Assembly: GCF_025264625.1 (NCBI RefSeq)
Contig: NZ_CP093313.1
Span: 2,480,001 to 2,544,000 of the forward strand
Source of the DNA: Occallatibacter riparius
GTDB lineage: Bacteria; Acidobacteriota; Terriglobia; Terriglobales; Acidobacteriaceae
Length of the DNA: 64,000 bases
Direction: 5' to 3'
Part shown: piece after piece, positions 19,504 to 23,543 of the stretch
Position numbering within the stretch: position 1 is the stretch's first letter
How the letters are laid out: the number at the start of each line of letters is the position of its first letter
Position numbers and translations under genes: made by a program
Notes under the pieces: model-generated
Seen by the model: the letters and a program-made list of their open reading frames with translations, nothing else
Database searches by the model: none
Told to the model about the DNA's origin: nothing

Positions 19504-19665
19504 GGACACCGCGCGAAAGCCCGCGTCCTGCGCGGCTTTCCGCCTCTTCCTCTGGTGTCCAGCAGTGCCCGCGCCGTCAGTTGCCTTACGCTGCCCAAAG
19601 CGTTTAGCGTCCAATCAAACACACAACCAATCACCACGCGATCCGCTGACCTTCCCCCGGTGTCC
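19504..19665. promoter_or_regulatory. candidate integrase arm-type sites, left end
   Basis: Three 7-bp copies lie between attL and the integrase gene: GGACACC at 19504-19510, and GGTGTCC at 19554-19560 and 19659-19665. Arm-site function is inferred from position and from the mirrored set at the other end. Confidence 0.45.
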
Positions 19666-19690: not shown

Positions 19691-20718
19691 ATGTTTGAGA
19701 AGTCCGGGAAGTTCTATGCCGATTGGCGCGACGCCAGCGGCAGCCGTCTCCGCAAATCTTTCACCAGCAAACGCGCCGCGCTCCAATACGAGGCCGAGCA
19801 GAAAGAGCTCGCCCACCCAAAAAAGCAGGCGCTCGGGTCACGTTGGCCGAAATCCTCAGCGCCGCATTCCTCGGCGAAGCGCAGGACCGCAACACCCACA
19901 ACATCGCCATCGCCAAAGCCCTCATCGCTCAAGCTGGTGCACTCTCGCCGCAAAAGCTAAGCGCCGCGCACGTCATGGAGATTGACGCCACTTTCCGCGG
20001 GCGCCCTTACAGCACCTCGACGCGCTGGCACTACGCCACCGCACTCCGCTGGATGCTCCGTTGGCTGTGGGAGCATCACGGCGCCCCCAAGCTCGATCAA
20101 ACGGTGCGCAAGTGGCCGCGGCCCCGCCCGCGCAATGTCACCGTGCACGACGACGAACGCGCCGCAATCCTCCGCGCGGCGCCCGATCACCTGCGGCTCT
20201 GGGTGCTACTGTGCTCAGACCTCGCCATCCGCTCAGGCACCGCAATCAACATCGGCCCGCCGCACTACAACGGCCAGCGCGGAACACTCTCGTTCACCAC
20301 AAAGTGTGACGAGCACCTAACCCTCCCGGTCACCGCCGCAGTGCAAGAGTTGATCGATCAGTGCGACCCGAACGACCCCACGTCCTACGTGCGGCAACTC
20401 TGGTTTGCCTACAACCAGCGCAAAGGCAGGCGCGGCCCCGTCCTGCGCCTGGGCAACCTGAACGCACTCCGCCGCCAGTTCTCCGAGCTCTGCAAGTCGC
20501 TCGGCACTCGGCGCGTTACTCTCCACGACCACCGCCGCACAACGGCAGTCGCCATGCTCGAACACACGCGCGACGTCCGCGAGGTCCAAGCCCTACTTGG
20601 ACACAAGGACCTGCACTCGACGTTCTGGTATCTCGACCACGCTCTACGTCCAATCCATCGCGAAACCCTCGAAGCCATCAAGCGCCCATTCCTCGTGAAG
20701 AAGGAGCACACCGCATGA
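19691..20718 (+). CDS. tyrosine recombinase/integrase, split by a -1 frameshift at A AAA AAG
   Basis: Catalyses site-specific integration and excision. ATG 19691, preceded by GAGGGA, opens MFEKSGKFYADWRDASGSRL, a normal integrase N-terminus. This frame runs on as an 89-residue product ending at 19960. The remaining domains lie in the -1 frame: a SAM-like core-binding region, then catalytic CSDLAIRSGTAINI (first Arg), TLHDHRRTT (HxxR), LLGHKD (His) and STFWYLDH (Tyr nucleophile). The frames join at AAAAAAG (19819-19825), read as A AAA AAG in frame 0. Joined, they give about 342 residues, a normal length. Read alone, the second frame would need TTG 19723 with no ribosome-binding site. Either programmed frameshifting or an inactivating indel or sequencing error. 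Confidence 0.85.
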
Positions 20719-21365: not shown

Positions 21366-21553
21366 GCTACACTCCTGCCGTGCCGCATCCGCTCGACAAC
21401 GCCAGCCCCAAAGCCCAGGACACGACGCCAGCGCCCACCGCTGCCGCATGGCTGCGCGACCCCGGCGCGCCGCCCACTGAAAGCGCCAACTCGCGCCTCA
21501 TCCGACAATGGGAAACCGAGCCCGAATGGAAGGACACCAGTGAGCAGCTTTGA
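21362..21553 (+). CDS. small unknown protein upstream of the sigma-like gene
   Basis: 63 residues from ATG 21362 (in-frame GTG at 21338 also possible). The first half is Pro/Ala/Thr-rich and probably disordered; the C-terminus is charged (SANSRLIRQWETEPEWKDTS). The start lies inside the inverted repeat and has no clear ribosome-binding site, so this call is tentative. It overlaps the next gene by 14 bases, as expected for coupled genes. Confidence 0.45.
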   Translation: MCYTPAVPHPLDNASPKAQDTTPAPTAAAWLRDPGAPPTESANSRLIRQWETEPEWKDTSEQL

Positions 21554-21881
21554 AGCGCTCGCCGTCGCCGCCCTCCGTCGCTGGTGCTCTGAGCGCTCCG
21601 CGCTGCGCTCCGGTCTGACGGTCAACCTGCAAGCCAGCGGCTACACACCACGCCAGCAGCGCGCCCACGATTCACGGCTGGTGCGCGTCCTCAGCTTTGA
21701 ACAGGTCTTCTCCACCCTCGCAGATCGCCAGCAGTCCGCTCTACTGCTGGCCTACCGGGACAACCTATCTCTCACCGCCCTTGCCTCCTGTTTGCGGTGC
21801 AGTGTCCCGGAAGCTCAGGCGCGCGTGTCCGGCGCGCGCCTGAGTCTCGCTGACGCCCTAGACCGCCGCGCCCTGCTTTAA
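21540..21881 (+). CDS. sigma-70 region-4-like helix-turn-helix protein
   Basis: 113 residues from GTG 21540, with GGAAGGA 6 bases upstream. The C-terminal half matches the region-4 pattern: FEQVFSTLADRQQSALLLAY, then DNLSLTALASCLRCSVPEAQ, then ARVSGARLSLADAL. There is no region 2, so it is not a complete sigma factor. It may be a DNA-binding regulator of the element. It shares the C-terminal LDRRxLL ending with 21914-22141. Confidence 0.65.
   Translation: MSSFEALAVAALRRWCSERSALRSGLTVNLQASGYTPRQQRAHDSRLVRVLSFEQVFSTLADRQQSALLLAYRDNLSLTALASCLRCSVPEAQARVSGARLSLADALDRRALL
21857..21880 (+). repeat. 24-nt repeat, copy 1 (divergent)
   Basis: CCTAGACCGCCG at the 5' end and CTGCT near the 3' end match the copies at 22117 and 22663 with a few differences. 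It encodes LDRRALL at the end of the sigma-like gene. Confidence 0.6.
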
Positions 21882-21913: not shown

Positions 21914-22141
21914 ATGCAAGCCCAGGCCAATCCTAAGTGCTATGTTTGCGGCTCGCGGCTCCTTCGCCGTGTCCCCTGCACAGGCATGGTGCGCAAACTC
22001 CTGCTCGCGCCCTTGGGCTTCTATCCTTGGCGCTGTTCGTTTTGCGGCATAGTGAGCATTAAGCGGTCGCGGAACTCCCCTCTGCTGTGGTTCCCTGCAA
22101 CCCGGCAGGCCAACGACCTAGACCGCCGCCACCTGCTGTAA
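21914..22141 (+). CDS. small zinc-ribbon protein, paralogue 1
   Basis: 75 residues. KCYVCGSRLLRRVPCTGMVR begins with CxxC; GFYPWRCSFCG supplies a second CxxC, together forming a likely zinc ribbon. The same layout recurs in the next gene (22225-22446), so the two are tandem paralogues. Basic residues between the Cys pairs suggest nucleic acid binding, which is inference. A -10-like TATACT lies at 21892-21897. The gene ends in LDRRHLL, encoded by a 24-nt sequence repeated elsewhere in the element. Confidence 0.7.
   Translation: MQAQANPKCYVCGSRLLRRVPCTGMVRKLLLAPLGFYPWRCSFCGIVSIKRSRNSPLLWFPATRQANDLDRRHLL
22117..22140 (+). repeat. 24-nt repeat, copy 2
   Basis: Differs from the copy at 22663-22686 by one base. 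It encodes LDRRHLL followed by the stop of the first zinc-ribbon gene. Confidence 0.7.
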
Positions 22142-22224: not shown

Positions 22225-22446
22225 ATGGTGTGCCGTAGCTGTGGCTCGACGTCCTTCACGCGAAGACCCCGCATAGGCTTTCTCCGCAAGTACGTGCTCC
22301 CGCGTTTCGGCTTCTATCCGTGGCGCTGCGACTTATGCGATTATGAGGCCCTGTTCCGGCAGAGAAGCGCCCCCGTCCCCAATGAACAAACCCATCAATC
22401 AGCGCCGCGGCCACACGTCATGAAAAAGGGCGCTGCCGGCCGGTAG
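22225..22446 (+). CDS. small zinc-ribbon protein, paralogue 2
   Basis: 73 residues. MVCRSCGSTSFTRRPRIGFL and GFYPWRCDLCDYEA mirror the first paralogue: CxxC, a basic stretch with FLRKYVLPR, then GFYPWRCxxC. The C-terminal tail differs (QTHQSAPRPHVMKKG) and lacks the LDRRHLL end. Likely zinc-binding, role unknown. A 7-bp hairpin overlaps its stop codon. Confidence 0.7.
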   Translation: MVCRSCGSTSFTRRPRIGFLRKYVLPRFGFYPWRCDLCDYEALFRQRSAPVPNEQTHQSAPRPHVMKKGAAGR

Positions 22447-23336: not shown

Positions 23337-23543
23337 ATGCCTCTAAAGCTTTATCGCGGAATCTGCGTTCGCCTGAAATCAGGTGGCCCCATGATGGTCA
23401 TCTTCGGCATCGACGAAGCAGGAGTATATTGCCGCTGGCTGGAAGGCGGAAAGCTGAAAGACGACATCTTCGACGCCGCCGACCTCGAACCCGCTACACA
23501 GCGCGAGGTTGCAGCCGCACTGGACACCCCGCGCAAACCATAA
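23337..23543 (+). CDS. DUF2158 (YodC-like) small protein
   Basis: 68 residues. ICVRLKSGGPMMVIFGIDEA then GVYCRWLEGGKLKDDIFDAA matches the DUF2158 layout: VxLKSGGPxM, a turn, CxW, and a closing Phe/Leu segment. These are small cytoplasmic proteins of unknown role, frequent on mobile elements. It is the last recognisable gene before the G+C-rich stretch and attR. Confidence 0.7.
   Translation: MPLKLYRGICVRLKSGGPMMVIFGIDEAGVYCRWLEGGKLKDDIFDAADLEPATQREVAAALDTPRKP

Follow-up and report, generated by a model that had tools for sequence, protein, structure and literature searches.

The integrase gene described here lies in a 64-kb stretch of the genome of the soil acidobacterium Occallatibacter riparius (the window, meaning the whole stretch of DNA that was analysed) and is divided between two reading frames (Table 1). 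Frame 0 opens at the ATG and yields 89 residues without slippage, while the core-binding and catalytic domains are encoded in frame -1, which extends to the stop at 20718; both features had been proposed from the DNA letters alone, in what we call the sequence-only reading, and both were confirmed. Counting 44 codons of frame 0 and 298 codons of frame -1 gives a fused product of 342 residues, in agreement with the size predicted by that reading. The frame -1 part matches the Pfam family Phage_integrase (PF00589, E 8e-11), its sole match above the Pfam cut-off, and does not qualify as a DDE transposase of the IS3/IS1 kind. Moreover, the catalytic residues of tyrosine recombinases (R, K, H-x-x-R, H/W and Y) are present and conserved across relatives, and profile comparison with solved chains matched XerC-like proteins, XerD and lambda Int. 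The genome is a single 6.8-Mb contig in which the integrase DNA is present once; the next protein matches to the integrase are weak, and Phage_integrase matches occur at 11 other places.

Table 1 Features of the integrase locus and its element, in window positions.
Feature	Start	End	Strand	Remarks
Left direct repeat, 26 bp	19466	19491	+	putative att
Left GGTGTCC cluster	19504	19665		at 19504, 19554 and 19659; putative arm sites, ahead of the integrase start
Frame-0 ORF, 89 aa	19691	19960	+	ATG 19691; AP2-like (beta-beta-beta-alpha) putative arm-binding domain, residues 1 to about 43, then tail
Slippery heptamer C_CCA_AAA	19816	19822	+	frame 0, 5 nt before the stem, common to ten other members; on the E. 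coli shift-prone list (PMC4066793, available in part)
Overlapping heptamer A_AAA_AAG	19819	19825	+	2 nt before the stem; product identical
Frame -1 part, 298 aa	19822	20718	+	tyrosine recombinase core-binding and catalytic domains; R, K, H-x-x-R, H, Y conserved
Putative stimulatory hairpin	19828	19863	+	GGCGCT (19828-19833) with AGCGCC (19858-19863), 24-nt loop
Second gene, 119 aa	20715	21074	+	unmatched in Pfam and PHROG; start codon shares ATGA with the integrase stop
Right GGTGTCC cluster	23522	24220		at 23522, 23953, 24185, 24203 and 24214; putative arm sites
Right direct repeat, 26 bp	24241	24266	+	putative att, 4775 bp from the left repeat

The N-terminal domain (46 residues) was modelled as a beta-beta-beta-alpha fold with a pLDDT of 86, and matches the PHROG integrase family phrog_11531 (5.9e-5). 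A Foldseek search of this domain against the PDB gave no match under E 0.001. In a structure re-alignment with 420 chains, made only as a second look, the AP2 domain 1gcc (Z 5.3) ranked third and the N-terminal domain of Tn916 Int, 1bb8 (Z 4.0), ranked fourth; these Z scores are middling, and the first two ranks were taken by Toxoplasma mitoribosome proteins. The N-terminal arm-binding domain of a tyrosine recombinase is thus judged to be present on the grounds of sequence and model, its DNA binding being predicted only.

The exact 26-bp repeats flank a 4.8-kb element and do not recur elsewhere in the genome even when up to 3 mismatches are allowed. The motif GGTGTCC occurs 15 times in the window, with ten occurrences inside the element, eight of them near its ends. 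Repeats were also found around related integrases: in Acidobacteriaceae dw_441 a 55-bp repeat, 3035 bp apart, lies over the 3' end of a tRNA-Arg gene, and in genome G464 a 53-bp repeat, 3047 bp apart, lies inside a tRNA-Met gene. In Granulicella rosea (L159, 4701-11775), two 100% identical tandem copies of 3527 bp, with a frame-broken integrase, lie between three 21-bp repeats; this suggests that an element with a broken integrase frame has been active recently, and such integrases can therefore be argued to work. No att-like repeats were seen in the available flanking stretches around L065, L067, L068 and L069, nor around L161 and L162. In a search for an empty site, in which 55 of 60 genomes matched and only the best loci were taken, the nucleoside hydrolase gene stood beside plsX in none of 19 loci of relatives (1.5-kb flanks), and these loci therefore speak neither for nor against an empty site.

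Several other features of the element were observed. ORFs similar to the second gene adjoin related integrases, and ATGA or GTGA stands at the integrase stop in 12 of the 14 relatives whose sequence includes it; translation of the next gene may therefore also depend on the frameshift. Further downstream, the ORF at 21540-21881 has a weak likeness to sigma-70 region 4 (Sigma70_r4_2, 0.0056, below the Pfam cut-off), and similar ORFs adjoin the integrase in Occallatibacter savannae and in the MAG SKS5.bin87. The ORFs at 21914-22141 and 22225-22446 are related, small and cysteine-containing (zinc-ribbon-like by eye), and share a 73-nt repeat of 73% identity. A 34-nt repeat is present in three copies (21853, 22113 and 22659), the first two of which encode the C-terminal ends of different ORFs (LDRRALL and LDRRHLL). 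Near the right end lies a small DUF2158 protein (23337-23543), and a possible start codon of the nucleoside hydrolase gene (ATG 24259) falls within the right repeat; insertion may thus have altered the promoter of that gene.

Homologues were collected through a search of 199 relatives and through profile searches of 398 genomes of the family, 399 of the class and 396 of the phylum (the sets overlap), and the N-terminal and core/catalytic domains were placed by profiles in six frames of each fetched locus. Thirty-nine distinct members with a detected N-terminal domain were retained, all from the class Terriglobia. Left out of the count were L103 (a second copy with the same junction sequence as L049), L070-L072 (duplicates of L047-L049), L065-L069 (duplicates of members under other identifiers), L021 (masked stretch), L051 (contig edge), L058 (no N-terminal domain match) and the copy G260:C2. 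In 38 of the 39 members the core/catalytic part lies in the -1 frame with the change at the same domain boundary, and none has a single frame open through the site. In the exception, L056, the catalytic part, for which the match begins at model position 48, is in frame 0 after an intervening stop. A BLAST alignment with the closely related L052 (75% identity, 37 gap positions) has a gap of one base close to its beginning, from which we infer that L056 is a copy carrying a further frame change.

This conservation bears directly on the sequence-only reading, which had regarded an indel in the homopolymer as the simpler alternative and had called for homologues to be compared for the same frame break, a comparison that turned out to favour the programmed shift. 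A sequencing error or recent indel in the A-run, with the gene a pseudogene or mis-assembled, could be entertained since the break falls at a homopolymer, where indels are common, and since L056 does have an additional frame change. However, the break is common to 38 of the 39 members, 26 of the 39 have no A-run of at least six at the site, and several carriers are single-contig genomes (G000, G002, G274 and G464) or strain-named. Furthermore, in five pairs the third codon position changes most in frame 0 before the slip and in frame -1 after it, and the catalytic residues are kept, which also speaks against decay. As a general account, indel or pseudogene is refuted by the conserved break, and we leave it only the slimmest chance for the gene in the window.

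The frame-broken family was found in one class only of the sampled genomes: matches better than 1e-37 are confined to the class, and the best outside it, in the phylum sample, is 3e-28. Named carriers, all Acidobacteriota, are Occallatibacter savannae and Granulicella rosea (both family Acidobacteriaceae, class Terriglobia), Acidobacteriaceae dw_441 and MAGs. At E 1e-5, plasmid and phage collections contained nothing related to the catalytic part, and they gave only weak matches to the N-terminal domain (best E 0.06); IMG/VR contained 19 distant integrases. In a tree of the 39 members and 34 outgroup integrases, the members are set apart by a 100/100 branch. At five places the class also contains integrases whose arm domain, a related one (phrog_11531), belongs to a single open frame of 368-382 codons; the four of these that were placed in the tree fall among the controls.

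The two frames could also be read as two genes, an arm-domain protein and a shorter recombinase that is started internally, by coupling or internal initiation, and acts with it in trans. Indeed, the window has a TTG (19723) in frame -1 that would open a 331-aa ORF, and 7 of the 39 members, the window included, have an in-frame start before the core domain. The remaining 32 have none, whereas 31 of the 34 controls do (positions in this comparison are approximate). Starts within the arm-domain region would have that region translated out of frame, and the frame-0 stops are 24 to 498 nt beyond the domain end, with no fixed distance for coupling. Neither coupling nor internal initiation accounts for a slip motif and a hairpin that keep a set distance, as described below, and we consider the two-gene arrangement very improbable.

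Slippery motifs of the form X_XXZ_ZZN or Z_ZZN, in frame 0 within the overlap of the two frames, are kept or swapped among the homologues. The junctions comprise C_CCA_AAA in 11 members (including the window), A_AAA_AAA in 12, G_GGA_AAA in 2, C_CCA_AAC or C_CCA_AAT in 2, A_AAC_CCY in 4, the C_CCT tetramer alone in 5, and T_TTT or T_TTC in 3, so that a full heptamer is absent in 8 of the 39 (tetramers only). An in-frame X_XXZ_ZZN is found within the stop-limited overlap in 30 of the 39 members, against 4.7 expected from codon shuffles; the wrong phases give 13, of which 12 are A-runs read one base later, and 4. The nine outside the 30 are the five C_CCT tetramers, the three T_TTY motifs and L056, which is not scorable as its C_CCA_AAT lies outside the scored overlap. 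Parsimony gives 11 changes between motif classes on the members-only tree and also 11 with a control label included, a figure to be taken roughly, as about ten, because several branches are weak. In E. coli, the list of 18 shift-prone heptamers includes C_CCA_AAA, A_AAA_AAA and A_AAA_AAG but not G_GGA_AAA, and the C_CCU tetramer is weak and needs a pseudoknot (PMC4066793, in the parts available).

In the window, the sequence-only reading had placed the switch at A_AAA_AAG, and this heptamer does stand in frame 0, where a run of six A (19819-19824) is followed by a G (19825). The overlapping C_CCA_AAA is the likelier operative site, because of its distance to the stem (5 nt as against 2 nt) and because of homology, the nearest relatives having C_CCA_AAA without an A-run. 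Residues from either heptamer are identical (P-K-K-A), and the two can therefore be separated by mutants only.

Runs of A raise the further possibility that the RNA polymerase slips and produces mRNAs in the fused frame. Runs of seven A are present in 12 of the 39 members and one of six in the window, and transcriptional slippage has been proposed for IS transposases (PMC3711429, in part). On the other hand, members with C_CCA_AAA (outside the window), C_CCT, G_GGA_AAA or T_TTC contain no long run, and the direction is -1 in 38 of the 39, while the transposase families that the accessible part of the same source attributes to transcriptional slippage go both ways. A hairpin at fixed spacing fits slippage of the ribosome instead, and transcriptional slippage appears scarcely credible to us.

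Both arms of the stem that had been proposed, GGCGCT and AGCGCC, are present in the window, and the stem is retained in six close relatives. Because the overall folding energy of the region in the window is unremarkable (z 0.06) and hence uninformative, a position-specific hairpin test was used, for which the slip motif of each member was fixed by the author before measurement. With the 5' arm allowed to start 4-9 nt after the slip codon, the best uninterrupted stem has a mean of -16.2 kcal/mol over 36 members, while 15 other offsets in these sequences give means between -6.0 and -9.2 kcal/mol; the summed hairpin z is -12 relative to dinucleotide shuffles. The best stem starts 4-6 nt past the slip codon in all but L098 (7) and L052 (9). 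L059-L061 stood outside this test and were examined apart, and the hairpin p exceeds 0.5 in 3 of the 36 (L016, L057 and L093). Among six close members, 97% of the cells of the 6-bp stem are paired, and two of its six pairs show compensatory changes; the covariation score was matched by 9 of 500 shuffles, and at least two compensatory pairs occurred in 60 of 500. Furthermore, pairing of the loop with the member's own downstream 30 nt has a mean of -12.2, against about -9.7, better than any of 5000 reassignments, which suggests an H-type pseudoknot in many members.

Upstream of the site, complementarity of the Shine-Dalgarno (SD) type peaks in windows ending 6 and 8 nt upstream (means -2.48 and -2.22, background -0.23), which coding may explain. 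Evidence from the window alone is modest: its hairpin is not significant (p 0.08), the possible pseudoknot between GCCGA in the loop and a downstream TCGGC has a p of 0.32, and the SD-like energy is only -2.1 over 18 nt. A covarying structure at fixed spacing is thus supported at the family level and is not significant for the window copy alone.

Four results were obtained by computation, namely conservation of the break, the slip motifs, a structure in a set position and one common group in the tree, and they lend strong support to the programmed shift that the sequence-only reading had considered. We are highly confident that this integrase gene, which belongs to a small integrative element of an Acidobacteriaceae genome, is expressed via programmed -1 ribosomal frameshifting, in the absence of protein or reporter data. 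This is by far the best account, although what it says of the rate, of the purpose and of any role for the short product is inference. Ribosomes that do not slip would remain in frame 0 and make a short protein, essentially the arm-binding domain. Some ribosomes would slip back by one base at C_CCA_AAA, aided by the hairpin or pseudoknot 5 nt downstream and perhaps by an SD-like stretch upstream, and would produce the 342-residue integrase with its arm-binding, core-binding and catalytic domains. Both the occurrence of frameshifting and its rate are inferred, as is the notion that the integrase is kept scarce thereby.

Comparable control is known from other systems. In transposases of the IS3 and IS1 families, the N-terminal part made alone regulates. 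The recombinase of these elements, OrfAB, is a -1 fusion made at X_XXZ_ZZN with a downstream hairpin or pseudoknot (PMC4066793, available parts). The integrase of the window resembles them as a mobile-element recombinase made by a -1 fusion with the same type of motif and a downstream structure. Unlike their DDE transposases, it is a tyrosine recombinase with a putative arm-binding domain, and its element has att-like repeats, which in two relatives lie within tRNA genes. In dnaX of E. coli, A_AAA_AAG is accompanied by an upstream SD-like element and a downstream hairpin; there the shifted product is the shorter one, whereas in the window it would be the full enzyme. Arm-binding integrases of the lambda and Tn916 type are read in one frame, in contrast to that of the window, whose frame changes between the arm-binding and core-binding domains. 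They share with it the arm-binding, core-binding and catalytic domains and the residues R, K, H-x-x-R, H and Y (PMC8138268, in part). The nearest known case in the literature searched, as far as its sources were available, is FseA of ICEMlSym(R7A) in Mesorhizobium, where a programmed +1 frameshift controls excision of the element (PMC5882170, PMC9601964). There too, recombination of an integrative element is gated by a programmed frameshift, but the shift is +1 and yields an activator of the excisionase gene rdfS, not an integrase.

A frameshifted tyrosine integrase was not found among the matches listed in the literature searched, which excluded subscription papers and supplements and was available only in part. 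Term searches found neither 'recombinase' nor 'integrase' in the first 300,000 of 475,107 characters of a 2016 recoding review (PMC5009743), in the available text of the GeneTack paper (PMC3711429) or in the main text of PMC4066793, and 'frameshift' is absent from the accessible part of a survey of tyrosine recombinases (PMC8138268).

The placement of possible binding sites points to a role for the short product. Across members, GTGTCC occurs 48 times in the 7859 nt before the start codon versus 25 times in 34567 nt within the gene, and the former are often tandem repeats abutting the ATG. At least one copy is present in 22 of the 39 members; the other 17 have none, some of them having related repeats. 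This placement fits arm sites from which, by inference, the free arm domain could also shut off its own expression, at the level of translation or of transcription. We likewise infer, in the absence of binding data, that the short product may occupy arm sites at the element ends and beside its own start codon, where it would repress or compete. A tentative extension, which we hold to be possible though rather less than even in probability, is that throughout the clade frameshifting sets the ratio of free arm domain to full integrase, the free domain being a built-in antagonist that binds tandem GGTGTCC-type repeats next to its own start codon and at the element ends.

Frameshift control is well known for DDE transposases, and tyrosine integrases are a large class of mobile-element enzymes. 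Annotation may miscall such integrases as pseudogenes or give them wrong starts. The break has been kept while slip motifs were swapped about ten times, so that the clade can serve as a natural experiment on frameshift signals, and this in a phylum that has received little study. If the proposed antagonism is true, the rate of slippage would fix the supply of integrase and the activity or direction of recombination, and the OrfA/OrfAB logic would have been invented again in tyrosine recombinases.
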